Below are positions 6,868-42,120 of a DNA stretch of 64,000 bases, piece by piece; the first letter of the stretch is position 1; every line of letters starts with the position of its first letter. The notes under the pieces are model-generated. The model was not told the origin of the DNA and searched no databases. It saw only the letters and a program-made list of their open reading frames with translations. Position numbers and translations under genes: made by a program. This DNA is from Tomocerus qinae (Eukaryota > Arthropoda > Collembola > Entomobryomorpha > Tomoceridae): positions 43,020,296 through 43,084,295 of the forward strand of contig CM034548.1 in assembly GCA_020055645.1 (NCBI GenBank), written 5' to 3'.

Positions 6868-7882
6868 AAACCCTACGAGGTACTTAAGTACGCTGATTTG
6901 GAATATGGCCACCGATATATCATCAGAATGACCCCAACCGATATTGGGGGTATGCCCCAATATCGGAAAATATAAAACAATTGAATCAAATAAATTCCAT
7001 TGAACCTACGGGGTATTTAAATTCGCTGATTTCGTATATGGCCACCGATATATCTTCTGGATGACCCCATCCTATATAGGGGGTATGCCCCCATATCGGA
7101 AAATATAAAACAATTGATTTAAATAAATTCCATTGACCCTAAGGGGTATTTAAATACACTGATTTCAAATATGTTCACAGATATATCTTCTGAATGACCC
7201 CATCCGATATATGGGGTATGCCCCCATATCAGAAAATATAAAACAATTGAATTTAATAAATTCCGTTGACACTACGGGGTATTTAAATACGCTGATTTCA
7301 AATATGGCCACCAATATATCTTCTGAATGACCCTGTCCGATATAGGGGGTATGCCCCCATATCGGCAAATATAAAACAATTGAATTTAATAAATTCCGTT
7401 GACCCTACGGGGTATTTAAATACGCTGATTTCAAATATGGCCACCAATATATCTTCTGAATGACCCTGTCCGATATAGAGGGTATGCCACCATATCGGCA
7501 AATATAAAACAATTGAATTAAATAAATTTCGTTAACCCTACGGGGTATTTAAATACGCTGATTTCAAATATGGCCACCAATATATCTTCTGAATGACCCC
7601 ATCCGATATAGGGGGTATGCCCCCATATCGGCAAATAAAGAACAATTGAATTAAGTAAATTCCGTTAACCCTACGGGGTATTTAAATACGCTGATTTCAA
7701 ATATGGCTACCAATATATCTTCAGAATGACCCCATCCGATATAGGGGGTATGCCCCCATATCGGCAAATATAAAACAATTGAATTAAATAAATTCCGTTG
7801 ACCCTACGGAGTATTTAAATACGCTGATTTCAGAAATGGCCACAGATTGATCTTCGGAATGACCCCATCCGATATAGGGGCA
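6868..7882 (-). repeat. 133-bp satellite array, left (inverted) block
   Basis: About 7.6 units of 133 bp. In the plus-strand reading each unit contains a near-perfect inverted repeat built on CCGATATAGGGGGTATGCCC...ATATCGG, then an A/T-rich spacer with CAATTG, then CCCTACGGGGTATTTAAA and ACGCTGATTTC. The block is the reverse complement of the adjacent right block. Unit variants near 7634 (AAATAAAGAAC), 7525 (TTTCGTTAACCC) and 7490 (GGTATGCCACC) recur in mirror order at about 8525, 8630 and 8668. The left block is therefore an inverted copy of part of the right block. The overlapping short open frames are by-products of the repeat. Confidence 0.93.
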
Positions 7883-9963
7883 TACCCTCTATATCGGATG
7901 GAGTCACTCTGAAGATACACCGGTGCCCATATTTGAAATCAGCGTATTTAATTACCCCGTAGGGTCAGCAGAACATATTTATTTCAAAAGTTTTATATTT
8001 GCCGATAGGGGGGCATACCCCCTACATCGGACGGGGTCGTTCTGAACATATATTGGTGGCCATATTTGAAATCAGCGTATTTAAATACCCCGTAGGGTCA
8101 ACGGAATTTATTTAATTCAATTTTTTATATTTGCCGATATGGGGGCATACCCCCTATATCGGATAGGGTCATTCAGAAGATATATTAGTGGCCATATTTG
8201 AAACCAGCGTATTTAAATACCCCGTAGGGTCAACGGAATTTATTAAAATCAATTGTTTTATATTTGCCGATATGGGGGCATACCCCCTATATCGGATGGG
8301 GTCATTCAGAAGATATATTGGTGGCCATATTTGAAATCAGCGTATTTAAATACCCCGTAGGGTTAACGGAATTTATTTAATTCAATTGTTTTATATTTGC
8401 CGATATGGGGGCATACCCCCTATATCGGATGGGGTCATTCTGAAGATATATTGGTGGCCATATTTGAAATCAGCGTATTTAAATACCCCGTAGGGTTAAC
8501 GGAATTTATTTAATTCATTTGTTCTTTATTTGCCGATATGGGGGCATACCCCTTATATCGGATGGGGTCATTCAGAAGATATATTGGTGGCCATATTTGA
8601 AATCAGCGTATTTAAATACCCCGTAGGGTTAACGAAATTTATTCAATTCAATTGTTTTATATTTGCCGATATGGTGGCATACCCCCTATATCGGACAGGG
8701 TCATTCAGAAGATATATTGGTGGCCATATTTGAAATCAGCGTATTTAAATACCCCGTAGGGTCAACGGAATTTATTAAATTCAATTGTTTTATATTTGCC
8801 GATATGGGGGCATACCCCCTATATCGGACAGGGTCATTCAGAAGATATATTGGTGGCCATATTTGAAATCAGCGTATTTAAATACCCCGTAGGGTCAACG
8901 GAATTTATTAAATTCAATTGTTTTATATTTGCCGATATGGGGGCATACCCCCTATATCGGATGGGGTCATTCAGAAGATATATTGGTGGCCATATTTGAA
9001 ATCAGCGTATTTAAATACCCCGTAGGGTTAACGGAATTTATTTAATTCAATTGTTTTATATTTGCCGATATGGGGGCATACCCCCTATATCGGATGGGGT
9101 CATTCTGAAGATATATTGGTAGCCATATTTGAAATCAGCGTATTTAAATACCCCGTAGGGTTAACGGAATTTATTTAATTCAATTGTTTTATATTTGCCG
9201 ATATGGGGGCATACCTCCTATATCGGATGGGGTCATTCTGAAGATATATTGGTGGCCATATTTGAAATCAGCGTATTTAAATACCCCGTCGGGTTAACGG
9301 AATTTATTTAATTCAATTGTTTTATATTTGCCGATATGGGGGCATACCCCCTATATCGGATGGGGTCATTTAGAAGATATTTTGGTGGCCATATTTGAAA
9401 TCAGCGTATTTAAATACCCCGTAAGGTCAATGGAATTTATTTAATTCAATTGTTTTATATTTGCTGATATGGAGGCATACCCCCTATATCGGACAGGGTC
9501 ATTCAGAAGATATATTGGTGGCCATATTTGAAATCAGCGTATTTAAATACCCCGTAGGGTCAACGGAATTTATTAAATTCAATTGTTTTATATTTGCCGA
9601 TATGGGGGCATACCCCCTATATCGGATAGGGTCATTCAGAAGATATATTAGTGGCCATATTTGAAACCAGCGTATTTAAATACCCCGTAGGGTCAACGGA
9701 ATTTATTAAAATCAATTGTTTTATATTTGCCGATATGGGGGCATACCCCCTATATCGGATGGGGTCATTCAGAAGATATATTGGTGGCCATATTTGAAAT
9801 CAGCGTATTTAAATACCCCGTAGGGTTAACGGAATTTATTTAATTCAATTGTTTTATATTTGCCGATATGGGGGCATACCCCCTATATCGGATGGGGTCA
9901 TTCTTAAGATATATCGGTGGCCATATTTGAAATTAGGGTATTTAGTTACCCCGTAGGGTCAAC
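7883..9963 (+). repeat. 133-bp satellite array, right block
   Basis: About 15.7 units of the same 133-bp repeat in the opposite orientation. Diagnostic positions such as CGATATGG recur at exact multiples of 133 bp (for example 8530, 8663, 8796 and 9461). A distinctive variant (GGATAGGG, TTAGTGGCC, AAACCAGCG) occurs at 8161 and again at 9624, exactly 11 units apart, and about 280 bp after each are identical. The last unit (about 9900-9963) is more diverged, as edge units of arrays usually are. Each unit can form a hairpin through its GC-rich inverted repeat. No target duplication was found at the outer ends. Confidence 0.93.
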
Positions 9964-10227
9964 CGACATTTTTATTTCATATGTTTTTGAATTTTCAAAT
10001 ATGGGTGTTAGCTGCTGTCATTTTCTTGGGCTTCGGGTAAGTTTATGCGATTATCTGTAATAGTAATTCTGAAAGGATAAATGGTATGCGATGGCTTTAT
10101 AGGCTTATTTCTCGCTTACTAGATCTAGTAGAGTACATTCAGTTTGCTAAGTTTCGACACATTTTATATTATATCTCCTGGCCAGACTTTAAGGGTTTTG
10201 GTTTATTTTTAGAGTTAATACCTTTTT

Positions 10228-10370
10228 GCAGCGCTGCTATTTGCAATAAGTCTATTCAGTGTATAGGCGGATTTGTTGTTGAAAGGATTGTAAAGATTTG
10301 TTGTTGTTGTCTGACTGTCTGAGTACCAGACATTCAAATGTGCAAACACGACGTGAAGAGTAATTACTTA
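10228..10370. repeat. Diverged direct duplication, copy 1
   Basis: Aligns with about 10652-10795. Shared stretches include GTCTATTCA, CGGATTTGTTG, CAGACAT and CAAATGT.CAAACACGA. Identity by eye is about three quarters. In both copies the same frame reads AICNxSIQC..GFV....I..IC..CL, but neither open frame has other support as a gene. This probably reflects an old local duplication or two fragments of an unrecognised dispersed repeat. Confidence 0.6.
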
Positions 10371-10651
10371 CATTTACTTTATAAATTTTAAATAAGAGAA
10401 ATCGCTCTTGGTAATGTGGAGTTGATTACGCCTACAATGCATGGCAAAAGGTTATTTCGGTTTTTATTTCCTTTTAACACAATCCTATCTTTTTACTTTT
10501 TTGGATATTTCGTGTTAAACAAATGGAGCAGCTCTTGGGCTCAATTATGCCTTTCAATTCCGATATCAAATATGATATCCAGAGAGAATTGAATCTTGTC
10601 TCAGCTAGATTTACACTCTGCGTTTCATTACCTTTCCAAAATACCTGCGTC

Positions 10652-10795
10652 GCTGCAATTTGTAATATGTCTATTCAATGCCTAGCCGGATTTGTTGCTA
10701 CAAAGATTGCAAATATTTGTTATTTTTGTCTGGGTAGCAGACATGCAAATGTCCAAACACGAAATGAAGCGAAATTATTTTGCATCTACTTTGTA
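10652..10795. repeat. Diverged direct duplication, copy 2
   Basis: Partner of the copy about 424 bp to the left. It has the same motif order, with small gaps after TTTTTGTCT. The homology fades near TACTTTGTAAAT, which matches TACTTTATAAAT about 430 bp earlier. Confidence 0.6.
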
Positions 10796-13700
10796 AATCT
10801 GAGAAGAATTTTACTCTGAACAGTAAGACACAAATGGTTATAATTTCGAAGGCATTTTATTTCAAATAGCGAAACAATTACCTAGCTATGCTTATAGGTC
10901 ATTAAGTGATTTACGAAACAAAGAACGGTCAACAATTCCAAAATTGGCGGCCATAAAATAAAATCTGAATAATAATATGAAAGTCTTGTTACAGGCTTCT
11001 CATTATCACATTCTATTGTAACTTCCTTTTGCGTTTTGGCAGAAAGATAACGTTACACGTTTTGGGTCATCTCTGTTATTTCACACTGTCGTTACGGCTT
11101 TAATCTTGCATGTTGCTGTTTTTGAATACTTAAAATGTAAATTAGCCACAGTTGATTATCTGTTCAGGTATCTAGTATACCTCTAGTTTATATATCTTCA
11201 TAGATGAAATGCCATGAGGTCGAAAAGCACCATCGCTAATGTGGCTTATGATTGTGTACTCACTCAGGTTGCACTCTTGGTTTGGGATTTGTCAGAGTCA
11301 GGATTAAAATTGAGTTGTGGGATGTTTTGTTTTGCTGTGTATACGTGATAGTAGGGGCAAGATTGCAGAAAGGTGCTTTCCTCGTCATGAGTGTTGAATT
11401 TTTGATAGTGAATCTTTGGCTTATTATTAAACTAAACTTACATTACTAAAACACTGAAAACAAAAAATCAAACATTTCATCTTGTTCAAAATTAAAAGAA
11501 ATAAACACTTTCTTTATTATTTAAAGTTCATGATTCAACTAACCATGGCAAAATCGGCTACAGAAATAACTAATCGAAATAAACCCGATTTTCTTTTCAA
11601 AACCAGTTTAATTTTAAATTAGAGCACCTTTTTAGTCAGCGGCTGGGCATAATTATACTATGCAAAATTTAGGGTAATGTGTATACAGGTATTTATGGAA
11701 ATCAAAGTACTATTTTATTCACATATTTAGGTTAAACAATACTGATTAGTAGTTCCTTGTTTATTTATGTTTAACATCGCAGTGTTACGTTTCTGAATAT
11801 CAAATGAAACGATGCGGTTTGCGTCATTAAAGAACACAATTAATATTATAATCTTGTTGTTAGCCAGAATACCTTTTCTTCTCTCTGTGGCTTGGTTTAC
11901 TTTGGATATCATATTGCCATAGATTTGGGGATTGCGTGCCTTCCATTTAATAGAGCAACAGTACATACCTACCTACCTAGAATCTTCCCAAGGTTGCAAA
12001 ATAATGTACTCTTGTTGTGGCCAAAATTTTAGTGTAGCAGTAGAGGTACTATGTCTAAACGCATTTCTGCGATAGACCATTTAACCAGGATTGCATAGAT
12101 AAGTATATATAGGGATCATCTATAGTGGGTGAGCGGGGTTTGGTTACAAGTTACAAATACGCATCGTTACATGTTATTGCTACTATAATTAGTAATGGGT
12201 GTCACACATATTAAGTACATGTTTTGAATGGATGTCGGATGCTTAGAAAGAAAACTTTGTAGATGGGTGTAGGTATTACTTGTTTGGGTAAAGAGAAAAG
12301 CCCAGGAGCAAGACCTTTTGTTACATGGCTTTTGTTTCGTCTTCCTTTTGTTGAACTTTCTTTACAGATTAACTGGTAAGCGTATTATTGTTAACAAGAC
12401 CTACCCATAACTATGCTCTAAATAACGATACTCTCCTGGCTCATGATAATGATGTAGCTACACTCTTGCAATTTGAATATGCTTACTCTATCGTCACGTA
12501 AACGTAACACTTTCGTCTCACATAATATTACATTTTGTAATAAGTATGATCCGTCTGTACTTACGGAGAACGTGAGGTTGATGTCCCCTAATGGACATCT
12601 GACTGCTCTGGAAACAGATCTCTTCTCTAGTAACATAATAATACTCTCTCTCTCTAATCTGTAGCAGAGACAGACAAAAAGCGGCGTTTACTTTAGTAGA
12701 TATGGAAATGACAGCCATTTATTCCTTCCATGTCACTTTCTTGGAAGAGTCTAGTTAATAGGCTTACCTACATTATTATACTTATATAACACAAAATAGC
12801 TAATAGTTTTCTTTGTACTTGCAACTCGACAAACTCTAATGTGTTCTTGGAAAAACGACCGCAAAATAAAATAATCTTTTGTTTCTCTTTTCTTTTGATT
12901 CCCGTCTTCTGTTTTCTTCCAAGAAATACATATTAAACTGGGACTTATATAAAATGCAAAATCATAGTACCGTATTTAGAAGTTGGTTTTAGGGAAATGA
13001 CGGATGAGTGAGACGTCATATAAACGAATTCAATATGAAAATATAAAGCATATTAAATGGGTCAACAATGGTCTAAACAGAAAAAATTGTATCGCATTTT
13101 TTTTACTTTTTTTGCAGAAATCTGTGCTCTTTTGTATTACATGGAAAGTGAAAACGAACAAATGAATTTACTAAGTAATTGAACTGCGTTCACAGAATTG
13201 CGCTTTCTTAATACGGCCTGGAATGTATACTAGGTTAATTTTTGGTTGAAATGAAAAAATAATCGTATTTAAAAATTCTATGTTTTGGACAACTTTAAGG
13301 ATGAAGTTCATGTACGCAATCGCTGCAGTTTTACATATTGTAACATTTTATATTAATATAATATTCTCCTGAAAGTATAACATTTACAAATATGGATGAA
13401 CTTCAATTATTCATTAAATACATTACAGATTTCTAAATACCTGCCTTTTCGTAATTAGTAATAATGGGTCATGGGACGTCAAGTGATACAGCCTTGCCAT
13501 AAAAGTGGACTTTCTTTGTTTTGTCTGTCAGAGTGAAATACATAAACCAAACGAAGGAGAAAGCGGAGATAGTTGGTCTCAGAGTCCATGTAGTAACAAT
13601 AGATCATTCACTTTCTTAACTCAATTCTTGGAACATTAATGCATGGTTTCATTTTCATTATTCTTGTTTGTCTTCTGACACTTTCGTAAACCACCCGATA

Positions 13701-15075
13701 CAAGTAAAGTTGTCTATACTTGCTTACCTTTGATTCTTTTCTTTTTCTGTCAATCTTTTTATCCGCATTGAGTGCAACTAGAAGATTAGACTTACACAAC
13801 CTTACAGCGTACACCCACACAACTTTCACAACTGACTCTGTGACTAAAAATCTACTAAAATTTCTTCAGTCTACATCTTGTATAAAAGAAGTATGTAGTC
13901 CTTTGACGATTTTCATGCGAATCCATTTGCAGTAGAGACATTCACTTAAATGCTGAAACTAGATGAATACAGTTTTTGTGTTGCAGCGTTACGTAAACTG
14001 TTTATGTAAGTCACATCGCAGTATTATGACACAGCTGAATTGACTTATGTAATTGGACTGTAATACTTAGATTTTGAATCTAACCTTACCTTTCCGAGAA
14101 AAGGTAGAAAACCAAAGCTACCTAATCGGTACAGTCAATTAAGAATTAAGTAACGTTCTTTATTCTTCAGAACAAAGACACTCTCGCTAATGGACCCTAA
14201 AACCTTGTTTCGTAAATACTATAACATTACTTCCTTCACCTGTCCAGTAAATACATTTGCTGTCTTGAGTAGAAGAATAAGGTTTCATACCATTTTTTGT
14301 TTCATGAAATACTGTAAATCTGAACTAATACATAGTACTAATATTATACTGTTAATATTAAATACTGTTAATATTAATAAGGACCAAACATTTCCTATTT
14401 GTGACTTAAAGGGAACAAATTAAATTTTTGTACGAAATTCTGCATCCAAAAATTATAAATTTTTATGTCCTTAATATAATCTAGGAGCTCAAGTTGAGTA
14501 TGAATCTTTCACAATTCCAAAAACTACAACCTAAATAAATAGTGAATACATAAATGAAGTGTACCAATTGTAAATAAATAAGACAATGGAAATTTCTAGA
14601 TAAGAATTGATTGATTTTTCTAAGTAAATGAATACTTTTTCTGACATTATTATTACAACTTCTTTATCTGTGAAATTACTTCATTATTGCTTGGAATAAC
14701 TTGCTCTAAAAATGAGTTTTTAGTCTGAACTTAAATAGTACTGCCTATAAGTCAATCAAAACATTCTACTCGACCCGTTAATGAATGACTTTCAGGAAAC
14801 GGAAAACTATTAACATTACTATTGATGAATGATAATTAAGAGAATCCTGCTTTTATCTTTTCAATTAATTTACTAATTGTTACGTAATATTTAAATTAAT
14901 TTTTCACAATATTCTCGTAAAATAAAAGTTTTAACTTACATTATTTAATTTGCTTATTGAGGTTTGCATGATTTGCGCTATACACTTTTTATGCACAAAG
15001 CCTCTCTGTTATGAAACAGAAAATCTTTTGAGCGGTGATGCATCAAGTCAAGCAATGATACTTTTCTAACAAGAC
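10796..15075. other. Non-coding; no gene seen
   Basis: AT-rich sequence with only short, unsupported open frames on both strands. Overlapping opposite-strand frames near 12418-12718 and 13608-13935 look like chance. No tRNA-like internal promoter or known RNA was recognised. Confidence 0.4.
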
Positions 15076-15878
15076 AATCTCTATATATAATCGCAGACTT
15101 GATAAATTTACCTGTCTATATATATATGTATGTACGTGTGGTAGGGAGAGCCTAGGGAGCCTGCATATATTACGTAACGCAAAAACCCACTCCCACATAT
15201 GTAACTCAAGTGCTGACTGCAACTCTTTTGAGTACCTCCTCCTCCCATCAACTGCATACGTAATATATGCAGGCTCCTTAAAAGCAAAAAAGCAAAATGC
15301 GCAAGCCCAATTCCTCTAAACCACCGAAATGAGTTGTTTCATATTATTATTATAACATCAAAATATTAATAGAAAACAGGTTGAGTAGTGATGGGTGATC
15401 GAATGGAAATGATTATCGAAGGGGAACATTTCGTAATGATCATATAATGTGCGTATTAAATAGCATTTCAAAACTTCTAATCCAAATTGGTTCTGCTACA
15501 TCGACAAACTTATTCAACATTATTTAGTAGAGCTGGTTTTACTTTTTACCACCCTCTTGATTTCTTCGTGCCAGTTGCGACATCTTTTTGTAGAATTAAA
15601 ATAAATAACCGTACTGGGTACCTCTATTTATTCTTTAATAATATTTTATTAGTAAGTTGTACTCATGGATTTTGTATGTTTTTCCAAAATTCCACGGGGA
15701 ATCGAATTTTTTGATTGTAAAAGGGAGCTTTTTGGTAACTTTGTGCGAGCTCTTTCGAAAATAGAGTTAACATAATAACCTAATGGGATGTTTTCGAATT
15801 TGTTTTTATTACTGTGATGCGTGGCTTGCTGAATTTCTCTTGAGTGCTAGATTTGCCCCCTTAGCTGGGTTCACTAGT
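15076..15878 (-). repeat. Dispersed repeat A, copy A1
   Basis: This copy is the reverse complement of 18602-19786, apart from gaps. Its outer end is near AATCTCTATATATAATCG and its inner end is GCTGGGTTCACTAGT. The same terminus, (A)CTAG[TC]GAACCCAGC, starts the copies at 18602 and 54321, so it is a real end of the element. Compared with A2 it lacks roughly 250 bp in the middle (around 15720-15790). No transposase or reverse-transcriptase coding was recognised, so it is non-autonomous or decayed. Confidence 0.8.
15156..15277. repeat. Palindrome-ended segment inside repeat A1
   Basis: GGAGCCTGCATATATTACGT at the left end is matched by its inverse at the right end (ACGTAATATATGCAGGCTCC), giving about 21-bp inverted ends over 122 bp. 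A corresponding, more degenerate segment lies in A2. It is either a structural part of repeat A or a small element inserted before the copies spread. Confidence 0.7.
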
Positions 15879-18601
15879 AAAAAATGAAAGGGAACGACCT
15901 TTGAGAATTCAGAAGTACTGACAGCAAAAAGAGTCTCTTAATCTAACGTGCAATAAAGAAGGCCAAGAAGGATTTCGTTTTTGCAATAGTAGAAAGAATG
16001 TTAAAAGAGTGGCCCTCAGTAACAATGGCGCTATTAGGGCTTTTGAATACTTTTCTATTTCGAATTCTGAGTACCACTTTTATTGTTGGAATATTTTCAT
16101 AAGTTGGGCATTGCATAGAAGAGCTTACGTCTAAAAGAAAAATGTACTTGTGTGCATGTGAGAGTTTTAGTTTGTCGAGTAGTAGAAATGGAGCAACCTG
16201 TGAAAGTGTCAGCTTTGCCGATACGTGCTTCTGAAAAATTCGCCATTGTGGTACTTGTGCTCTTAATATCAACTCATAATGTTATACTCGTGCCTATATT
16301 TAGGTCTGTAGGTAGGAACGATTTACATTTGTACTTTAGGTATTAGAATCACGTAGTAGAACATGTGCGTACGCTACCTAGATTTCCGAAGCTTGCTTCT
16401 TTAGGCATCTATATTAATTCATGATATCTCTGTATGTATGTATAATAGATGGGGATATTTTACTATATCATAGCTCTTCTCATATCCTTCCGCTTACTTT
16501 TGTTTTATTAATACACTTTACGGAAAACTCTTTCTGGCCTGAAGTCCGAATTACAAAATGGAAAAAATACATCATATAAATAAGAATACCTATACCGTTC
16601 AAAATAGCCGTTATAGCTGAATGCCCACACAGGGTTTTGTCATACAAAAAGGCAGACCCGTTGCGGTTTTTGATTTGAATTGCTTGCTCTGAGGGGGGCA
16701 GTTCAAATTATTTTCATAACAAAATCTCATTCGATTTTCATTATGCATGCCTGCAAATTTTGCAACATGACGTCTATTACTCGGGAAAATGATGGGGAAC
16801 CATTAAACTCATTGAATCCATCATCCACAACAAGATTAACGTATTTACATTCGCTTCGTACCTTACGTTTCGGCATATTTACATTTTATAATGAGAAAGT
16901 CCACACAGGATGAAAAGATATAAATGAGCTTTGTTATTTCATGAATGGTAGTAGTTCGTTACTCCCTAGCTCCGTAAGCATAATTGCAGATTATGAACAT
17001 TAATTTGAGAAAGGAAGCCAAAAAATTAGTTTTAGGTATTTCTGACTTCTGAAATATTGCTTTTCAAACACAAAATTGCCCTGCACTTCACGTATCCCGC
17101 ATACAGGGTTGCTTGCAAACTTCATCTATATTTTCCAACTTATTTTCTAACACCCTGTACAGGGGGTGTGGGCCCTTTTAGCGCGTCAGAATATTGTTAG
17201 GTGACTTAATGACACAAAATTGTATTTGGCAATTTCGAAATGTAAATGATATTATTTAATGCAAATGTTCACCAATAAATCGATGCCTAAGCTTACGGTG
17301 TCCAAACTAAGTAAGTAATTACGGAATCTATATTTAACCAAGCGAATTAATTCTGGAAAGTCACTTCATTAACGTTGACTTAAAAATTACATGGCCATCA
17401 TAACCATGTCTTTTAACCCTGTTAAATAATTTACGAATTTTACGAAAATTTGCGAAAATTTCCAAAAGTTGTGAATAAAGGAATTTTAAGAGATAAATTC
17501 GTATTATTGCAGTCTCGAGATAGATTAGCAGTCAGTTAAACGAAACACTGATGTTGTAAATATAGTAGTAAGTATTTAAAGTTGAAGATATTTGCTTCCT
17601 CTTAAAGAGTTTTTTCAACAAAGTGGAAGTAAGTGGTATTGGGCATATAAAAGTATTATTGAAAACCTGTTTTATATTCCCGTTGTGTTCCATTTTGTTC
17701 TGTCTGTTGTAAGCACTTCTGTTCGGATCTCTATTTGCTCATTATATTGTGCTGTAGTTTACTTTTAGTTAGAAACTATGCCTTCCCCGAGTTCCTGTTA
17801 CTATTTAATACTCCATCGTATCAGAACGAGTAAGATGAGAAAGGAAGGAAAGAGAAAGAAAATAGAGCGTCTACTCTATTTAATCTAACTGTATCCTTCT
17901 ATCTATATGCAACACTAGAAAGGTAGGAAGGAAGGAATACGTAGCAGTAGACGTGTCGGTAGTATTTCTGAAAATAAGAATTGTACATTGACGTTGTTAG
18001 TGGCCTAGACATATAGAAACTAGGTAGGAGCTGGCTGGGTATGTTAAACTGTTGTAAGTAGACTGCGAGAGCTAAAAAGTGTAGAGACACGTGTAGTCCA
18101 TCAAGGAAGACAAAGGCAGGCAGCCCATTGCTGAAATTCGACTCAACTTAACACAACTGAACTTTCCAACATTTCTCATCTCCATGTCCACAATCATCCT
18201 TCTTCCTTAACTTCCCTTTATTCATCTGCTAACTTTTATTAGGGATCTACCACTTTAATATCACTACACCTTCTACTACACTTTCACAACTCTGATTCAG
18301 TCATCCCACTCACAACCAAACAGCGATAGACACAAAAAGTAAATAAGTAGTCCGTAGTTGCTTAGCAAATATTGCATACTTACTTCGCAAACATTTACGA
18401 CAGACGTAAACATTTTCTACTAACGAAGTGATAATTACAGATTAAGTGCATGCATTACTGTCCTTTTAATTCCATTATTTCTCAAACGGCTTTCTTCCTA
18501 ATAAAATACCTTTCTTTAATGTTGAAAGCAGTTTTTGTTGGGTTGCTCTGCTTTTCGACAGAACTTAATCTTCTGCTCTTCCAATCGATGCTTATTTAAA
18601 G
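15879..18601. other. Segment between inverted repeats A1 and A2
   Basis: About 2.7 kb with no recognisable coding sequence. A 109-codon open frame at 15943-16272 (minus) has no domain or splice support. TACAGGGT...ACCCTGTA ends at 17102-17159 enclose 58 bp and may be a remnant element terminus, but this is weak. I cannot tell whether this is the interior of one element with long inverted ends or unrelated DNA between two insertions. Confidence 0.4.
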
Positions 18602-19269
18602 ACTAGCGAACCCAGCTAAGGAGCGAACCTAGCACTCAAGAGAAATTCAGCAGGCCACCTATCACAGTAGTAAAAACAATTCAGAAAAAATCATCGGCAT
18701 TTCCCTTATAGTTATTAAATTTGTAAATAAAATAATTTAAATATCTTTTTTAGAAAAATTAGCTGCAGTTTCAACTTCCTGATAAAAAGGAATTTACTAA
18801 ACTACAACAATAACTGTAGATCGTAGCATCAAATACAGGAGACAATGAAAGACTCCATTTTTAATAATCAGCTCAAAAAGTTACCAAAAAGCTCCCATTT
18901 ACAACCAGAAAAATAAGATTCCCCCAGGGATTTTGGAAAAACGTATAAATCCCATGAGTACAACTTACGGATGAATATTTTTAGACGATAAATAGTGGCC
19001 CCTAGTACTGTTATTTAATTGTACAAAAAGGTGTGCAAGCTGCCACAAAAAAGAGTCAAGGGGGTCTAGGGGGTAATAAAAAGTAAAACCAGTCTACTAA
19101 AAATACTAAATTTGCTTGTCAAGTTAACAGAACCAATTTGGATTAGGAGTTTTGAAATGCTAATTAATACGCACATTACGATCATTACGAAATGTTCCCT
19201 TTCGCCAAACATCTCCATCACAAAATAATCATCTTATGTTCTATTTTTGTTTTGATGTTATAATAATAT

Positions 19270-19491
19270 AGGCACCCAATACCATTGCCGAATTTCAAAA
19301 TGATTATGCATATTATCATTGTCTAATTTCGAAATAAGCTAATGTTAACCCATATTGGACTTCCTTGTTTTATGAAACATGTATTGTTTACGCGCATGTG
19401 CATTGCAACAAAATTGTGCATTGTCCATGGCATAGATAGATACATAGATACCTGCGACATAGTAATAAATAATTTTATTATATAGAGATTT
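19270..19491. mobile_element. 222-bp insertion within repeat A2, 20-bp flanking duplication
   Basis: The inserted stretch is absent from A1. It is bracketed by TTTTGATGTTATAATAATAT (19250-19269) and a copy differing at one base (19492-19511), while A1 has a single corresponding site near 15341-15361. A duplication of about 20 bp fits target-primed retroposition (SINE or truncated LINE) better than a typical DNA transposon. The insert starts AGGCACCCAATACC and ends in TTATTATATAGAGATTTT; no tRNA-like head was recognised. Confidence 0.6.
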
Positions 19492-19574
19492 TTTTGATGT
19501 TGTAATAATATGAAACGACTCATTTCGTTGGTTTAGAGGAATTGGGCTTGCGCATTTTGCTTTTTTGCTTTCAA

Positions 19575-19696
19575 GGAGCCTGCATGTATTACGTGTGCAG
19601 TTGATGGTAGGAGGAGGTACTCAAAAGTGTTGCAGTCAGCACTTGTGCTACACATGGGGGAGGGGGTTTTGCATTACGTAATATATGCAGGTTTCC
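19575..19696. repeat. Palindrome-ended segment inside repeat A2
   Basis: GGAGCCTGCATGTATTACGT at the left and the near-inverse ACGTAATATATGCAGGTTTCC at the right enclose 122 bp, the same length as in A1. The interior shares the AGTACCTCC/GGAGGTACT and GTGCTGACTGCA motifs. The inverted ends are diverged here. Confidence 0.6.
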
Positions 19697-20067
19697 TAAA
19701 TTCTCCCTACCATACGTACATATATATAAATATATATAGACAGGTAAATGTATTGCTTTATCAAGTCTACGATTAATACAGATTGGCTTAGATGTAATGT
19801 CTCAGGAGATGTAATTGTGCAATGTACATAGTACATACGCATATTGCATAATGATGTTCTCTACCATCCACGGATTGCGAATATATAATTATATTATTAT
19901 TAATCGCCGTCAAAAATTAATTTCAGATCTAAGATGCATTAATTAATCTTTAAGATTCCAGGGCTTAATTTGCTTAGATGAAAAACACGTTGAATATTTC
20001 TTTTAAAAGTGTGATATGGCAGTCGAGAAGGAAATGCCTACAAACCCAGACACATTCACGCATTCGA

Positions 20068-20184
20068 GTTGCGTTTTAGGCGTTGGAAAGAGTGCTTTGC
20101 ATATTATGAAACAAACAATTTGTTTTTCAAGTTGCGTTTTAGGCATTGGAAAGAGTGCTTTGCATATTATGAAACAAACAATTT
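20068..20184. repeat. 63-bp-offset tandem duplication
   Basis: Two 54-bp copies (20068-20121 and 20131-20184), starting GTTGCGTTTTAGGC and ending CAAACAATTT, differ at one visible base. The 63-bp offset is a multiple of three, so a 109-codon frame through the region (20016-20345) stays open across both copies. That frame is probably a by-product and has no other support. Confidence 0.85.
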
Positions 20185-20290
20185 ATGTTTGGGTATTGGA
20201 TAATCTGGGCTGCACTGTGTATGTTCCAATGTCCAATGCCACGTGCTCCGATGGCTTAGAAAAAGTGAACATGCGCATTTTGAATTTATC

Positions 20291-32300: not shown

Positions 32301-33527
32301 GAAACTATTCAAATTAGTTCTGTTTTTCGATGCATCTAAGCGCGAATACAATATAACTTTGGTAATCTCAGTCTGAATTTCTGAATAATATAAACTGGGA
32401 CAAGTATTAAGCTCCAGAAACTCCAGTGAACAACATAATTTTATCCTAAAAAGCATCATGTCTTGACAGTTGAGGTGTAAATACCAGATAATTTTTCTAT
32501 GATCTCCGCCATACTGAGAAATAGTAAGTCACATTGATCATCAGACTACTGTTGTCTAGCCAAATAACTGCTATCACTTTAATTGTGTCTGCCTTTTCGC
32601 AAGATTTCTTTTCAAAAAGAGTTTTCTCCCTACCCAGGAGATAACAATACAATATATGACATTTTTTAGAGTTTTTTTTAAATCTGTTGTAACGATAGAA
32701 TATCGTTAGCGTAGGATTGTACAAAAGAATGAATATTATTATGGTCTGAGTCTAGTAAGTAGAGCATAAAGATTTATTCAGAGAAAATATAATTCGAATG
32801 ACTCTAGGATTTGCCTGAAACGATGAATCTGGACTCTGGAACGAAAATGTGTAACTCTGAGAATTCATCTTTGATTAAATATCCGTAACATCTAGAGGCA
32901 ACAAGAACGATACAATCAAATAACTAATTTATTAAATTCCCATTTCACTATAAAATGATAATACTGATTCTATTGAAATCTTCATTACCGTGTAGTTTTC
33001 AAAAGCTTAACAAAAACTATCAGCTAGTAGAGTCATGAATAAGATTTTGGTTATAGTGGTTGTAAATTTTCCTCTAAGCAGTCTATTCCTGTACAAATTA
33101 CTAAAATTCGCAACCGCATTGATAAACAAAACTTTTGAAACACAAAATTTCTCATTAAGTATTACCGTAGATAAAAGTTTACTAGTTTAAAATTTTGTTT
33201 CCAAGTGGTAACTTCACTAACAAAGGCTGTAAGCAAATAACACACCTAACGAAATTTTGTGAAAGCTGTTATTGAATTCTCAAGACCTAATTTACAAAGA
33301 AAACTTAATTGCTTTGCACGGATTAATTAAAGGACAATCCTTTAACACAAAAGTACTTAGGTGTAAAGTTGCATGATTGCATGCCAACTGCTATATAAAA
33401 GTATTCACATTCAAGGGCAACACTAATTTATATATGCAACTAGAATACAGAATTCATGGATAGTCGAAAAAAGTTATATGTAATGGGAGACTCTTTGACG
33501 AAAAGTCTCTTGAAGGAATTCACACCT
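20397..33527. other. 13-kb AT-rich region without supportable genes
   Basis: Only short or unsupported open frames. The longest is 129 codons at 24823-25212 (+, starting at TTG); it is hydrophobic, but a frame of that length is expected by chance in this amount of AT-rich DNA. No splice-bounded exon, RNA gene or array was recognised. It may be intronic or intergenic. Confidence 0.45.
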
Positions 33528-33661
33528 ACAAGGCCGCAGCGAGGGGGGGGGCACCGGGGCACGTGCCCCCACCTGAAATCGAGAACAATGAAGAAATTTT
33601 TGTCTAAAAACCCAAAAACTTCTGCTGCCCCCCCCCCGAAATTTTTTTCGCCCTGCACACC
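33528..33661. mobile_element. GC-rich transposon end remnant (hAT-like)
   Basis: AAGGCCGCAGCGAGGGGG followed by a G-run, a C-run and CGAAATTTTTTTCG stands out from its AT-rich surroundings. It contains the perfect 14-bp palindrome GGGGCACGTGCCCC at 33556-33569. This style of end (GCCGCAGCGAGG plus poly-G/C) is common in degraded hAT-group elements. I cannot define both termini or a target duplication. The open frames on both strands here are not genes. Confidence 0.45.
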
Positions 33662-35053
33662 TAACGAACTGGATAGACAGCTACGCAAATAATAAAACCT
33701 GTATATTTAATACAAGCATGTAGCATATAACCACATCAGCTAAAGCTTTTCCGCAGCAATCGAACATGCTTGGCTCTAGTACTGTCCATAACTATCTGGT
33801 GACATAAAATTCAGTTGATATGCAACAATGATGAATAATTCTTGATGAGACTGTTTTTAAAATATTTCGCTAGTACCAACTAGAGGTAGAGCTTTATGAT
33901 GCATTGAGACCCTCAGGCTTCATTGTCATTATATGTGTAATTCTCTATTAGAAAATGGTATCAGGGCAGACAGCTAAGTTACAGGCATTTGGATTTTGTG
34001 TGATATAAATATCTTTTGATGCTAAGGAATAGAAATCCAAAAACAAATCGAATAGCCAGCATTGAAGTGGGTAATAGCTTTTACTAAACAGATTTGGTTC
34101 CAGTCGTAGAATTTAATTGAATAGACATTTAACATTAAATAGCTATGCTCAGATCATCAGATGCTTATTGGGGTATTGCAATACGGACGCTAAATGGTGA
34201 AGCGAAACTAAAATGTAAAATGTTATTCATATTTATTGTTATACTTATTGTTGCTTACTATGCACAAGAATTTTGTATTTTTTAGAAAGCACTTCAGTTA
34301 AATCTCTTTGACCCTGAAAGGGTTTGGTAGATTATTTGGGTTGTACAACGTTTGTATAGTGTTTGAACTAAATTAAATACCTGTCCAACATTCCATGAAG
34401 GGCACAGAGCTTATATGAATACTAATTAATTTTGTAATTAATTTGTTTACATATTTTCGTGAATTAAGCTTTGCCAGAAGGCTTCTACAAGTTTTAGGAG
34501 GAACTTTAGAGATTAGAAAAAAGAGATGAAACCAAGTGTGGGCAAGGTAGAGATTTTTACATACTTTTGTGAAGTATCTAATTGCAAACTTTTAAAGGGA
34601 TTCTCAAAACAGAGCTGAAATAAATTCTTTAGCAACTTTGGAGCATCGTGCAGTGCCCTTAGTAGATACGACAAAGTTTTGTTTACTTTACCGGAGATTG
34701 ATATGATTGTAACTATCAAGTAAAACTCAGATCTAAATTTTGCCTAAGGCAGAAAGAATATATTTTTGTAAATAGTAAGCACCTGGCAGCTTTTACTGTA
34801 GATTCCTACCTCTTCTATAGTTGACATGAAGACTGTTATCAAAAGTATTGAAGGTTATTGAAAACAGTTTTTAAAAATGTAAATAATTGCACTCTGTTAT
34901 GATTGCGCTTCCCCTGTAAATAAAAACTTGTGCTTTTGTAAGGCTAGTTGATTAGGTATATTGCTTAGAGTGGAAGAAAAAATTCTGTAATCTCAATTTT
35001 ATTGCTTTGGATGGTTTATATTCTATTTGAGAATGTATGATAATAAAAGAAAG
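33662..35053. other. Non-coding; no gene seen
   Basis: AT-rich, with only short unsupported open frames and no recognisable repeat. Confidence 0.4.
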
Positions 35054-35483
35054 CAGAGGCGGTACACACTCGAGCGGATCGGGCGATAGCACAGGGCCCC
35101 GTGCTGGGCCTGATTTTTAAATTTAACCATATATAACATCTACAAGAAATAGTAACTAACGAAATACTGATTAAATTTTTTAATGCAACTTAAAATATGC
35201 AGTTTTTTGTATTTCCTTATTCCCACTAATAATTTGTCATTTTTCCAATTAATTCAATTTTCAAGTAGGTGAAATATTTTTAATCAACAGAGCAAAACAG
35301 AACAAATTTGGATACTTTAGCGCTAAAATAGCTGCAAGCTTTACTTGTAATTTCATAACGAAACGTTTGCAATTAAACCGTTATTGAAATCCCCTTCAAA
35401 AGAAAAACTGCAGAAATAGGCATAGGACCACCCCCCGCCTTGAGGGTCTCGTACAGGGCCCCAGGGACCTAGTGTAGCCTCTG
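35054..35483. mobile_element. Probable hAT-like MITE (430 bp)
   Basis: Begins CAGAGGCGGTACACACTCGA and ends ACCTAGTGTAGCCTCTG, giving inverted ends of CAGAGGC plus TACAC. Subterminal GGGCCCC motifs occur at both sides (35093-35101 and 35456-35463), enclosing AT-rich non-coding DNA. The flanking octamers AAAGAAAG and AGGGCAAG match at only 5 of 8 positions, so the target duplication, if it is one, has decayed. Confidence 0.55.
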
Positions 35484-38400
35484 AGGGCAAGTATGAGTTC
35501 ATGTCACAAACCAAGAGATATTATTACATATTTAATTAAATATCACTTAAACGCAAGATATACACCGAAAGGGAAAATAAAAGCACTGCTTTATAGTCAA
35601 CGCCGTACCAAAGTAGCAGCAAAAAAGGAAACAAAGGCCAAGCCAAGAAGACCTGGAAAAGTACGAGAACAAAACTCGTCAGGCCGTCAAATACATTATT
35701 AAAACTGCAGAGAACTCACGCGTAATGCAAATGAAACCTACGGCACGTGTTCATTTATTCTAAGCGTAATTAATACATGATTTTTTTCAATACAATTTCA
35801 GCTATTAAAGTCTATCCACATACAAATAGGTACAAATTTCCTAGGTGCATATATTATTCGGATCATCAGTGCCATTTAGTATTTATTTAACCCTGCACCG
35901 AGTATGCAATTCGTACACAACTTTCAAGTTTATTGCCTGAACTTGACAAGTTCACCTGATGCCATTGATTTAATACGACCGTGAAACTTAAAACCATTCT
36001 GATTTGCCAAGTACATCAGCCTACCTTTAAGTGGCATATTATTAGTCTAGTAATATATCTGAAAAGTGTAGCAGCTCAATTCTGCGATTTAAGTTACAAC
36101 ATCATTTCTGTGTAACTCTTGTAACTATATCGAACAACACACTAGTTTGCTATTGCTTTGAAAATTGTCATTTTCGTACTAGGGAAAGCGAAACAGTAAT
36201 AAACACCACTATGCGCTGACCCTGCATGCAATTCTACTTTATTAAATTGCAGATTTAATTTCACCGACGCTTCCTATCTCCAAAGTCTAGTAAAATGTTA
36301 CAACGTTTTCTCTTTCTCCAGCTTTTTTCCTGGATGCAAAACTCATTACGACAGTTGGTTTTAGAATTGAACTCTTCAATTTTTAATTCTTCTAAATAGG
36401 TTGTGTTCAAATTATATAGAATTGCACTAGCTGTAGGGCGATAGCCTTAAATGTAGATCACGATGTGGCTATATTATAAGGTAGACAGTACTATCACGAT
36501 TTTCATGATTCGTTTACGGTAAAAAGTCTCTTGGTTCCTAACGAAGGACCTGCCGTGTAATTTTTCAGGTGGTCTTGCAAATAAAAAGGCTCGATTTATA
36601 GCGTGCAATTTGTCCAAGTTTCAATAAAGTTAGTACAACTTCAGTTTCATGGAGAGAGGACTTGGAAGTGATGGGCAGCAATAAATAGGCTGCAAAATTA
36701 GTAGACCTCTTTTCTTTTGTGCTTGCATATCACGAATCCTTTGTAGTTAAGTGATTCGCCATGTTTCTACTCATTAAATCTACTTCATATAGTGAACTGG
36801 CTGAACCATGATGCCACTAAAAAAGGATGCACTCATCACATTTCGTTTGAACATATCGACCTATTACATTATAACAAAACAAAGTCCGTACTAAAATTTT
36901 ATAGCTTTTATACTAGGGGCCTTCATTTGTTTTGATATATTGTTTTAGGTACCTGCGTAAGAACACGGATACTACTCTTTGCAAAACAACCAATAAATAC
37001 TGATAGAGCACTTCAAAACTGCATTTTATTAAAAATAAACCGTCGGGTGTTTTTAGATTTCTGCAGCTCACCTTTGGCTCAGTCTTAAGAAAATGTAAAA
37101 AAAAGCAAGAAAGTGTATTTGTGGAGATATTTCTAATACAAAAAGAAAGTTTTCTTTTCCGCAGATTGGAACTTTTCTGAAATTTCAGCAACAACATTTT
37201 GACTCTAGTTCCAGACGGATGGAGTTTAATAACTGGCTTGTAAGTTGTGTTCTGTATATGAAATGACTGTATAAAAATAACCTGCAACACATCCACATCT
37301 GTACAATGGTATGAGTTCGGATCTGCGATTAATGCTTATATCTTAGTAATCTAGTATAGTTGTGTAAAAGCAAAAAGTGGTTGCTAAGACTTCGCTCCCA
37401 CCCACCGTGTGAACTCTTATCTTATCCCCATTATTCCCACTATCTAGTAACCACATCTCTCATCCCGAAAATCCCATATAGCTTCACAATAACTACCTGT
37501 ACTCTGGGTTGGTCCTGATCCCACTGTGCATCATATCTGTAATTATCACTGTCGGACCAAGACTCAAGACATTACTGAAGCGTACCTTCATTAATAACAC
37601 AGAATCAAAGGCTTAATTTGGAAAAGATACCTGTCTTATTCAACGATGCACCTGCATCTTGCACCCAGTACTCGCATATTCATTCTCTACTTTCTCCGGC
37701 ATCTTTTCTTCTTCGCAAATCTAAATGGAGATTACGAGTCGAAGGATTATGTGCATGAAAGGTCAAACCCGAGAACAATGCAACAGATCCTAATCTCATT
37801 CTCCAATATTGTGACAAATGGACAAATCCTCCATTTTCCCTTATTTAAGTGATAAAGTGGAATGACCCAATATATTTCCCAGGAGTCTCTTCTCTCAATT
37901 GTGTGTCAATAGAAACAAAGCTGGAGAAAGTGCAGATATAAAAAAAGACAGAGAAAGCATAACAAAAAGAAATAAACGGAGTTTCTTACCCGTTGATAGC
38001 CATGACGGAAAAAGTAGTTCAGTTTCAGATCAGAGGAGATAGCTAGAGATAAGTTGTGGGAAAGTAGTATTCAGTAGTAGAATAACCCAACTTGGCTTTA
38101 CGGTCTTCTCGTAGTCGCGTACACTTTATTTTCAGTCGGTTCAGTAGCTTCAGCAGAGTTGAGTTGAGGTTGTTAAGTATGGTCTTCTTGTTGGACAGCA
38201 ATATAGGATATTACAGTAGTAAAGGTGATTATGTGAGTGAGAGCGCTGTTTTCGTCTTTCTTTGTGGCACTAAGCTGATCCAGCCAGTCGAAAAGGGAGA
38301 TTTAATGACCAAATGCTTTTCAATGTGCTTTGTAGCACCATAGAGATATAATGAGCTTATTATTGTGATTCCTTCTATAGCAAAGTCAACAGAGAAGCAG

Positions 38401-38845
38401 ATTTGATATTTTCATTCAGTTCAATAGAAACCGAACAAAAAGGTACTTGCCAACATCTTTTCATTCACTTGACGGGAGCAATGTCATTGAAATAGAAATG
38501 GAACTACAAATTTTTTGAGAGTCCTAAACTACTTCAATATGCAACAATCGGCAAATTGCCTAGAAAATGTGGCTTCCGTTTGATTATTATTTGAGCTAAT
38601 CAAGTCATGTCAAGTCTGCAGGCTTTAGCGAAGAGTTCCAGCACTCCCAGTCTCCTTTCCTGTTTATCACAACAGATTCCAAAGTTAATTAAATAATTCG
38701 GTTCTCGTCAAGACCAAGGCTTACGGCATATTGTTTAATTAGCTTTAACTATTGTGCAAACAATAGGCGGCAATGAAATATTTAGTCATACTAATCCTTT
38801 GCAGAAATGATATTATAACTCTGTCTATGACAACCATACAATACA
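35484..38845. other. Non-coding; no gene seen
   Basis: Short open frames only. The frame at 35493-35702 (+) encodes a Lys/Arg-rich peptide, and 36913-37296 (minus, 127 codons) is the longest; neither shows a domain, splice sites or a homologous neighbour. Confidence 0.4.
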
Positions 38846-39462
38846 CAGTGTACAAAATACCGTTTACCACTTACCAGTGGTAAGTGGTTTTTAATGGTAT
38901 TTAACGTTAAATACCACCAGCTAAAAACTAGTGGTAAGTGGTATAAATTGGTAAAAATGGTAAAAAATAGTTTCATTTAAATTTCGTGTTTAAATTTTGA
39001 ATAAAATTGGGTGCCAAAGCATGAAACAGCTTAGCAGCTGATGATTGTTGTCACAAATTGAAAAATGTCCATTCAATCAGAGTTGGATTCAATCGATGGG
39101 GACACTAATCGCCCTTATTTGCCGATTGAGAAAGTAATTGCAATTAAATTGGCGCATCCATATCAATTTTAAATTGGCGATACCAAATGAAATCTTGGTT
39201 TTAGTAACATTTATTTTATAACTTTCGGTGAACAACCAAATGAATAGGATTACTTTGATTAACTAAAGGGCTAATTGGAAATATTTCATAGAAAATAAAG
39301 TTTTAAAACCTATATTTTAGTAAGTCTTGTTTATCTATACTAATCTGTCTAATAAATCGCTGAAATTTACCATTTTTACCATTAAATGCATTTTTACCAT
39401 TAAGTGCATTTTTACCACTGTGATGGTAAAAAAGCCTAAAAAGTGGTAAATTTTGTACACTG
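38846..39462. mobile_element. hAT-type MITE, copy 2 (617 bp)
   Basis: Same element as 2577-3163: CAGTGTACAAAATACC start, AAATTTTGTACACTG end, and the same nested palindromes at the left. It is flanked by the exact 8-bp duplication ACAATACA (38838-38845 and 39463-39470), different from that of copy 1, so the two are independent insertions. It is longer than copy 1 through small internal insertions, for example an extra TGGTAAAAA unit after the palindromes. The 60-codon open frame over its left end is not a gene. Confidence 0.88.
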
Positions 39463-40110
39463 ACAATACACTGCAGGAACACTCAACATTTTGTCTTCCC
39501 ATTTCTCGTCCCTGAATCAGTGAAATCGGCTTATCTCATTACTTAAAACGTAATTTTTCAAGCTAATAGTGGCTTAATTTCCGTACACAAAAATTTTTTG
39601 TTATTTTCCTATCCGATGAGAGTATCTGGTGTCTCATTTTAGTTTGAAGGGCAATCGTGTGTGAATGCGTGTTTTGGTGTAGTAAGTAGTAGCTGTAATA
39701 ATTAGTAATGGTATTATAAGGATCTACTTTTCTGTAAGTCAACAACGTCTAATAAATAAATTAATGAGTTTTTGAGTACGACCCATGAATAAATAATATT
39801 ACATTTATGTTACCTATATACGATACCGATTTTAATTTAACTGAGGAAATTACATGTAGACATGTACAAATTACTAACGAATCCGCTAAAGAATAAAGCC
39901 CATGCTGCTGTAATGTAAAGACGTCTATCTTAGTCGTCACTAAAATAGTGAATTTTAAAAACAATTGTTGGATGTTGTGACATGATTACTTGACTGAATG
40001 TTAACACGATTTACTAAGCAAGAAATGCCATTCTCATTTGTCGTTTCTAATTCTAACTCCACTCCATTCTAATTCTAGTTTTAATAAAATTAAACCAAAC
40101 CCAGATAGCC

Positions 40111-40300
40111 CATAGGCGGACGGAGAAGGGGGGGTTTCTATAGGACTAGACCCCACCCGAAATTCAAAAAAAGCAATTTTTTTTAAAATACCAAAAATTT
40201 TCACCCATCGCGAGATTATATATTGCTTTTAATTCTTGGATCTCTCCCGAAAACAATTTCTCCGTCCCCCTTGCACCAGCTAGTGCAGTGCTATTTAAAA
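40111..40300. mobile_element. Transposon remnant with GC-rich ends
   Basis: CATAGGCGGACGGAGAAGGG with a G-run, then ACCCCACCCGAAATTC, and further on TTTCTCCGTCCCCCTTGCAC. The CGGACGGAGAA / TTCTCCGTCC pair is inverted. This resembles the ends of hAT-group elements such as the one at 35054 (shared AGGCGG). The boundaries are unclear. Confidence 0.4.
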
Positions 40301-40963
40301 CTGTAGGCCTTCTATCTGTAAATCTAAGAACTGAAATCTTATAAAACATATCAATTATTTATGTATGTCACATTGTCTAAAAATGTATATTCCAATTTTT
40401 TTGTCCTTCCTGTTTGGATTATTTGAATGGGCAAACATGAATACAAATATAGAATAAATAAAATGTCTCTAAATTATTGATGAATACCACAGAGCTGTGA
40501 TAACTGGTTGTGGTGGGCTACGGACATCAATAACCTTCCCAACTTAATTTTGTTATTGACAGTAATTTACAGTGTACCGCGTTTCACCTAGGGTTCTACT
40601 TTTGTAGTTGAGGACTAAGCCTATGTTTAACCTCCCACTAACTAATCTCAAATTTGTAGAACCAGTGCAGTGTAGTGAGTTGTAAATCCGTCATTTGGCT
40701 AGAGGGAATGGTAAAGAAACAGTCGTAGTACTATATAACAAACAAATTAGCGTGGTTCCTGTTTTTAAATGAAATGGAACTCAATTATTTTATGTCGATA
40801 AGGAAATAAGCCGATTCCAGCAACTTAGAACCTTAAGGTGAAAACTATGATATTGAGTAAAGAGGAATACAAGGCAACCACATCAATCTAACCTCTCAGT
40901 ATTTTAGACGTTTATGAAACTAACAGTTAAGTAAACATCCTACACATGATTGTCCGAAATAAT

Positions 40964-41043
40964 TCATTTCCAATCACTTGGAAACCATTTCCAAATGCTT
41001 GGAAATCATTTTCAAACACTTGAAAACCATTTCCAAACACTTC
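40964..41043 (-). repeat. 21-bp palindromic repeat array, left arm (about 4 units)
   Basis: Four degenerate copies of CCATTTCCAAACACTTGGAAA, the reverse complement of the unit in the 42328-43002 array, immediately left of the 130-bp satellite. Together they form oppositely oriented flanks. Confidence 0.85.
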
Positions 41044-41044
41044 T

Positions 41045-42006
41045 ATTAAACCTCACCTTTCGCGCACCATAGCAGCGCATTGGCCGCGCAAAAGTCAAGT
41101 TTCGCAGATTAAACCCAAACTTGGTGATTTGGGGTAATTTAATGCGCTGATTACGGATAAAATACTCAAATTCGAATAAACCCCACCTTTCGCGCACCAT
41201 AGCAGCGCATTGGCCGCGCAAAAGTCAAGTTTCACAGATTAAACCCAAACTTGGTGATTTGGGGTAATTAATTGCGCTGATTACGGATAAAATACTCAAA
41301 TAACAGTTAACTTTAGCTTTCGCGCTCTATAGCAGCGCAATGTTAGCGCAAAAGTCAAGTTTGTCAGATTCAATCTAAATTTTGGATTTTGGGGTAATTA
41401 AATGCGCTGATTACGGATAAAATACTAAAATAAGAGTTAACTTTAGCTTTCGCGCTATAAAGCAGCGCAATGTTAGCGCAAAAGTCAAGTTTGTCAGATT
41501 CAATCTAAATTTTGGATTTTGGGGTAATTAAATGCGCTGATTACGGATAAAATACTAAAATAAGAGTTAACTTTAGCTTTCGCGCTCTATAGCAGCGCAA
41601 TGTTAGCGCAAAAGTCAAGTTTCACAGATTAAACCCAAACTTGGTGATTTGGGGTAATTAATTGCGCTGATTACGGATAAAATACTCAAATAACAGTTAA
41701 CTTTAGCTTTCGCGCTCTATAGCAGCGCAATGTTAGCGCAAAAGTCAAGTTTGTCAGATTCAATCTAAATTTTGGATTTTGGGGTAATTAAATGCGCTGA
41801 TTACGGATAAAATACTAAAATAAGAGTTAACTTTAGTTTTCGCGCTATAAAGCAGCGCAATGTTAGCGCAAAAGTCAAGTTCCTCAGATTCAATCTAAAT
41901 TTTGGATTTTGGGGTAATTAAATGCGCTGATTACGGATAAAATACTCAAATAACAGTTAACTTTAGCTTTCGAGCTCTATAGCAGCGCAATGTTGGCACA
42001 AAAGTC
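41045..42006 (+). repeat. 130-bp satellite array (about 7.4 units)
   Basis: AGCAGCGCA recurs at exactly 130-bp steps: 41071, 41201, 41331, 41461, 41591, 41721, 41851 and 41981. Each unit contains TTTCGCGCTCTATAGCAGCG, GCGCAAAAGTCAAGTT, GATTTTGGGGTAATTAAATG and CGCTGATTACGGATAAAATA. Two or three sequence types alternate (for example CACAGATTAAACCCAAAC versus GTCAGATTCAATCTAAAT), indicating exchange between units. The units are richer in CpG than their surroundings. The core GGGGTAATTAAATGCGCTGA also occurs, with two changes, in the 133-bp satellite at 6868-9963. Confidence 0.95.
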
Positions 42007-42120
42007 GTTTGTTGGGCCATCTATCAACACAAATCACACATTTGCATATTAGACCAATTCGTTCTCCAAAAATGTCAAAAATTAACTTGGTAAAATGCAT
42101 CAATACACCTTGTATGACAT

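Follow-up and report, generated by a model that had tools for sequence, protein, structure and literature searches.

The closest known kind of element to those described here is Tetris of Drosophila virilis, a Foldback non-autonomous terminal inverted repeat (TIR) transposon whose inverted ends carry satellite-like tandem repeats of ~220 bp and whose tips are common to another element, the same autonomous element being its likely mover (PMC4079207; here and below, comparisons refer to excerpts of the cited papers). In Galileo, of the P superfamily, the THAP domain of the transposase binds sites in the tandem repeats of the long TIRs (PMC3688188), and Sola2-type elements make 4-bp AWWT target duplications (PMC3627910). 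Helentron-type elements of Crassostrea gigas carry dispersed satellite-like arrays, of which some dissimilar clusters share conserved segments (PMC7492417), and a transposition-related mechanism has been proposed for Meloidogyne satellites, which contain a CENP-B-like box and short conserved motifs (PMC3694981). Here we analyse a 64,000-nucleotide stretch of the collembolan Tomocerus qinae (assembly GCA_020055645.1, contig CM034548.1, positions 43,020,296 to 43,084,295; hereafter the window), in which two tandem arrays with units of 133 and 130 bp share a short sequence (the box). It is well supported that dispersed TIR transposons with 4-bp target duplications contain both arrays, as arms or as inner parts. 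With somewhat better than even confidence, we further favor the explanation that the arrays are the internal parts of mostly non-autonomous Foldback-like TIR transposons, that the box is a putative recognition part of the unit, and that a DUF7869 protein is the probable transposase of the 133-bp family (family 1).

Like Tetris, these transposons have satellite-like tandem repeats in their inverted ends; unlike Tetris, they include several arm-repeat families with a common box, a period of 120-133 bp and a similarly placed hairpin, as well as a full-length element that has a DUF7869 frame. Galileo also repeats its sites within the tandem repeats of long inverted arms and offers a model for how the box might work, although Galileo has a THAP domain and measured binding, whereas here we infer binding. 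The elements share AWWT duplications (ATAT, AAAT, ATTT) and short TIRs with Sola2, but they are Sola2-like by target duplication only, and the excerpt describing Sola2 does not mention box arrays (PMC3627910). Dispersed satellite-like arrays inside non-autonomous elements are likewise found in the oyster Helentrons, but those are of Helitron type, with monomers mostly of 140-180 bp and one central array (PMC7492417). The Meloidogyne satellites are not described, in the excerpted text, as lying inside target-duplicated transposons (PMC3694981), and the excerpt of an aphid transposon survey names Sola and none of these features (PMC9783078). A literature search with the letters of the motif found no relevant paper, and the matches of a word search for DUF7869 or Sola2 were all to Sola2 and none to DUF7869. 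Compared with the papers found, the new feature is that one box and a similarly spaced hairpin are kept across several arm repeats, apparently across transposon types.

Two arrays and the transposons around them

Tandem Repeats Finder recovered a period of 133 bp at 6870-9971, in two opposed blocks (array 1), and a period of 130 bp at 41057-42006 (array 2). The box GGGGTAWTTAAATRCGCTGA (the shared box being 20-22 bp long) has 31 matches in the window when up to three mismatches are allowed, where shuffling gives a mean of 0.04. Array 1 holds 24 of these, 8 on the plus strand followed by 16 on the minus strand, and array 2 holds 7. When the 133- and 130-bp consensuses were compared on either strand, the top ungapped match was a 22-bp box (GGGGTATTTAAATACGCTGATT and GGGGTAATTAAATGCGCTGATT) with 2 differences (Gumbel p of 1.9e-5, 6.9e-5 and 3.3e-5 in three runs). 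Once the box was masked out, the remainder scored 7.0 against a null mean of 7.6, which is the level of shuffled sequence. These results bear out the original prediction, made from the letters of the window, that the arrays have nearly equal periods and share a core of ~20 bp that differs at two positions, in units that are otherwise divergent; against shuffles, this match has a p of 2e-5 to 7e-5. It had also placed both arrays among opposed repeat arms. This is true of array 1, which is itself head-to-head, but not of the 130-bp units of array 2, all of which run in the same direction; the opposed parts there belong to a 21-bp repeat (40965-41042 and 42322-43003).

The arrays had further been called satellites, a term that does not fit them in its usual sense: they are inner parts of dispersed TIR transposons and not free-standing. 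We scanned the whole assembly (334 Mb, 115 contigs) and took 20 box places on contig C1 for comparison of loci. Array length at the examined loci is small, about 0.4-4.0 kb, and a change from plus to minus units is seen in many of them. The non-array flanks are alike between loci and this likeness stops sharply, for array 1 at window positions 6607-6611 and 10160 and for array 2 near 40808 and 43301. Each end sequence of element 1, which holds array 1, has at least 40 scored matches genome-wide. Most copies have the ends GTGTCG...CGACAC, and those of family 2, to which array 2 belongs, have GTGYCG (GTGTCG or GTGCCG), with some tips altered.

Identical 4-bp flanks were found at 33 of the 35 loci with paired ends (42 loci examined, one row per locus), as against a mean of 17.5 and a maximum of 26 of 35 in 20000 shuffles of the partners, and at none of the 35 does the identity reach 5 bp. 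Counted as end pairs, of which L039 supplies three combinations, the figure is 35 of 37. Unequal flanks were seen at two loci, L028 and the copy of element 2 in the window; in the latter the left tip is AAGCCG for GTGCCG and the flanks are AAAT and ATAT. Among the left flanks of the 35 loci, ATAT occurs 23 times, AAAT 6 times, ATTT twice and AATT, CTAT, TAAT and AGTT once each; the AWWT forms ATAT, AAAT, ATTT or AATT thus account for 32 of 35, and the families are Sola2-like by target duplication only. Inverted ends with a duplication of fixed length place the elements among TIR DNA transposons of the cut-and-paste type, and long inverted arms of tandem repeats make them Foldback-like. Both box orientations are present in 33 of 47 loci, and in all 33 the boxes point inward (30 as fetched, and L023, L038 and L039 once split element by element); a single orientation is seen in the other 14.

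The box in further repeat families

Across the genome, the box has 716+670 matches with up to three mismatches, compared with 19+25 for a reversed control, and exact YGCTGATTWCRRATA has 699+717 compared with 2+1. The latter count mostly reflects units of known arrays, and we rejected the raw genome count as proof of the importance of the box because any 15-mer in an abundant array would be enriched. The search did establish that the box is not limited to the two window arrays; such a limitation would have told against the original prediction. The box recurs in arrays of 120, 121 and 122 bp and in a second 130-bp array. In prokaryote and virus collections, other eukaryotes being outside the scope, searches for the box or tandem boxes gave nothing or single matches in apparent coding DNA (L001-L010), and BLAST against plasmids and phages returned short chance matches only.

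Family 2 is divided into 2a, with the 130-bp array, and a sister group 2b, which shares its ends (left 97-98%, right about 87-92%). In place of the 130-bp array, 2b elements have inverted arms of a 120-bp repeat containing GCTGATTTCGAATA and a GC-rich hairpin. Since this repeat (u3) was reached via the element ends and not via the box, it provides an unbiased third case beside the 133-bp (u1) and 130-bp (u2) units, and in both comparisons its best local match to u1 and u2 is the box. A 40-bp tandem repeat (x14, at 1715-2281 of L042) was seen in one 2b element, the sole one among those scanned.

A variant absent from the consensuses of u1-u3, YGCTGATTACGAATA, has 33+43 genome matches compared with 0+0 reversed. 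Of these 76 places, 60 have another within 270 bp, and they lead to arrays of 122, 121 and 130 bp at L069-L073 (L072 being 120-122), whose units we call u5, u6 and u7. As these were found with YGCTGATTACGAATA, their likeness inside those 15 bases is due to selection; the AAATAAT extension, the tandem period and the inward arms lie outside that selection. When the six units u1, u2, u3, u5, u6 and u7 are compared two by two, all 15 pairs match best at the box, and of all 15-bp windows of u1-u3, only the box matches all five other units with up to three mismatches. The 16 YGCTGATTACGAATA places without a listed neighbor within 270 bp (e.g., C4:10710005 and C1:139639513) could be relics or single sites, or could belong to arrays with other variants.

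Most of these units also share a hairpin. In 6 of 7 units, by plain count, the strongest hairpin is centered 53.5-60.5 bp from the start of the anchor GCTGATT (GGCGAATT in the relative described below), the exception being the 121-bp unit. The head-to-head junction of array 1 lies inside the hairpin, which suggests template switching there.

The 122-bp family contains the box, but its elements end in CAGTGTA. L070, the sole copy with two intact tips, is flanked by an exact 8-bp duplication, ATTAGGGG, the length that hAT elements make. It is one of five loci of this group where both ends can be seen. At the other four the tips are altered and the duplication is absent, two of them (L064 and C1:98481140) having similar flanks; a sixth locus is without one end. 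Of four further copies of the L073 type, one has TCCA on both sides and the others have no clear duplication.

The window itself contains two copies of a short TIR element (2577-3163 and 38846-39462), 86% alike, that end in CAGTGTAC and are flanked by exact duplications of 8 bp, CCTTCTCA in one case and ACAATACA in the other. By these features they appear to be hAT-type miniature inverted-repeat transposable elements, and their first 7 bases, CAGTGTA, are those of the 122-bp box family.

Candidate transposase and competing explanations

Family 1 has two full-length copies, of 12.3-12.4 kb, at C1:12968.6-12981.0 kb and C1:14677.1-14689.4 kb. They are 99.3% alike over 12.1 kb and have ATAT target-site duplications (TSDs) in different flanks. 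In each, an open frame of 748 aa lies between two arms of 133-bp units, which are plus in the left arm and minus in the right. The sole Pfam match of this frame above cut-off is DUF7869 (E 1.5e-13). In six sequences compared, D positions are kept ([FM]D[FY], [AC]DN..GQNKN, D..F[GA]) and might represent the acidic residues of an RNase H-like transposase. The frame is probably the family 1 transposase, and DUF7869, a Pfam domain of unknown function, now has a mobile-element context attached to it.

A relative of this frame, 52% identical, is present at two other places, one with an internal stop, and the copy at C1:18410719 also matches DUF7869. Both places are flanked by inverted 133-bp arrays, in which the repeat (u4) is homologous to u1 over most of its length, except that GGCGAATTC replaces GCTGATTTC. 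At L062 (REL2; C2:42870000-42879900), the longest frame proved to be a polyprotein-like frame of another element and was set aside in the protein alignment; beyond 7886 of this locus, the array of the DUF7869-bearing relative is interrupted by what looks like a BEL-type retrotransposon. Many remoter relatives of the DUF7869 frame, 26-36% identical and several with 400-600 open codons, occur at L065-L068 and further places.

Under the explanation that we favor, the DUF7869 transposase from the 12.3-12.4-kb copies would move family 1, cutting at the tips GTGTCG or GTGCCG, and a 4-bp AT-rich target would be duplicated at insertion. Inside the tips lie the arms of 120-133 bp repeats, inward-facing where both are present, each unit with a box and most with a GC-rich hairpin ~55-60 bp further on. 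The transposase or a partner protein could bind the many boxes of an arm and help to pair the ends, so that many sites per arm would give higher specificity and end pairing. The rest of the unit would drift between families, while recombination and template switching altered the number of units. Family 2 might use the same or a related transposase, which fits with its keeping the tips, the duplication length and the box while losing the rest. Overall, we lean slightly towards the view that a protein binds the box, as a site repeated along the arms of the elements.

Several observations weigh against this explanation. Within family 1, the box ranks only 94th of 133 windows among 297 units and 91st of 133 among 19 arm or locus consensuses, and the best-conserved part of the unit is the hairpin. 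The expectation that the box would be conserved above the rest of the unit therefore fails inside the 133-bp family, and we abandoned the idea that it stands out there; it stands out between families, not within one. The hairpins of u1 and u2 have modest folding z-scores (-1.7 to -2.8). Some of the single pairs are weak (p 0.012-0.017 for u1-u3, 0.003-0.0035 for u2-u3 and 0.066 for u1-u7), the pair u1-u2 was singled out by the original prediction for its box, and u5-u7 were reached via the box pattern. The boxes of element 2a have one orientation only. In the relatives whose frame is 52% identical, the unit is retained but the 3' half of the box is lost, which fits co-divergence and also fits a lack of function. 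Lastly, the box is present in the CAGTGTA-ended 122-bp family, with its 8-bp duplication at L070 and none at the four loci with altered tips. If confirmed, the placement of this family in a different superfamily would mean that a single transposase is not the whole explanation.

This last point leads to an alternative that we consider unlikely but give real weight. The box and hairpin could form a module of 120-133 bp taken up by at least two superfamilies, a portable cis-acting device indifferent to the transposase and putatively bound by a shared protein or a host factor (involved in chromatin, replication or silencing). Elements with GTGTCG ends and 4-bp duplications and those with CAGTGTA ends do have the box, the 120-133 bp period and the inward arms in common, and the TSD at L070 is an exact 8 bp; however, that duplication is found at one of the five both-ended loci, the other four being tip-altered and two of these having similar flanks, and the second type of end is known from the 122-bp family but not from the 121-bp or second 130-bp arrays (L071, L073).

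We regard as rather improbable that the units simply descend from one ancestral arm repeat, with the box as the last recognizable stretch and without function. The homology of u1 and u4 over most of the unit is what such descent would leave, and so is the finding that, inside family 1, conservation of the box does not exceed that of the remaining unit. On the other hand, the matches among u1, u2, u3, u5, u6 and u7 are sharply confined to the box, and windows elsewhere in u1-u3 match at most one of the five other units. A neutral relic is expected to decay evenly, so this limitation to the box counts against plain descent. Chance or convergence of short AT-rich strings is very improbable: the comparison of the two arrays is by itself post hoc, but its p is 2e-5 to 7e-5 and the box recurs in the 120-bp array of u3, which was reached through element ends and not through the box. 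Nematode satellites that are otherwise different but share conserved motifs, one of them CENP-B-box-like (PMC3694981), might suggest that these too are ordinary satellites of centromeres or heterochromatin with a box like that of CENP-B. This idea can be dismissed, because among the matches listed the arrays are short (about 0.4-4.0 kb) and lie in dispersed, target-duplicated elements along large contigs.

The original prediction had offered two readings, common descent and selection acting on a site for protein binding or transposition. The connection to transposition is borne out by the TIR elements, the 4-bp duplications and the DUF7869 full-length copies, whereas the box is not the best-conserved part of family 1 and descent and selection are not separated. 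The favored explanation links satellite-like arrays with functional parts of transposons, and provides a concrete candidate site. At least six repeat units have little in common except a box of ~15-22 bp and, mostly, a similarly spaced hairpin. If the box is bound, this would explain both the persistence of tandem arms with this unit length in Foldback-like elements and the origin of satellites that have only a short box in common.

Features of the window

Coordinates of the two elements and their parts. Positions are those of the window.
Feature	Position	Strand	Basis
TSD ATTT, left of element 1	6607-6610		flank comparison
Element 1, non-autonomous TIR transposon, 3550 bp, 133-bp family, ends GTGTCG...CGACAC	6611-10160		homology stop in genomic copies, ends, TSD
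Left arm array, 133-bp units, 8 inward boxes	6870-7880	+	repeat finder, box matches
Head-to-head junction of arms, within the unit's own hairpin	7869-7897		
Right arm array, 133-bp units, 16 inward boxes	7869-9971	-	repeat finder, box matches
TSD ATTT, right of element 1	10161-10164		
Element 2, non-autonomous TIR transposon, about 2494 bp, 130-bp family	about 40808-43301		
21-bp minisatellite, left side of element 2	40965-41042	-	
130-bp unit array, 7 boxes	41057-42006	+	
Non-repeat middle of element 2, 315 bp	42007-42321		matched in 7 loci: 100% in six, 86% in one
21-bp minisatellite on the right of element 2, in opposite orientation to that on the left	42322-43003	+	

The 21-bp minisatellite of element 2 is near-palindromic (TTTCCAA..TTGGAAA) and is also present in the family 2 loci L022, L029, L030 and L039-L058. 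Its copy number is very variable, and where both ends of an element are present its ranges come near both of them. A search of the window with Rfam gave no family at the gathering score; the sub-threshold matches are mostly of microRNA models to the 21-bp repeat and were taken as artefacts.

Elsewhere in the window, an open frame of 1099 aa with a high content of S, T, P and Q lies on the minus strand at 60576-63875 and has no Pfam match at E 0.001. An inverted pair of ~800 bp, 78-86% alike, is located at 15071-15878 and 18602-19789, and related pieces are found beside L026 and L028.

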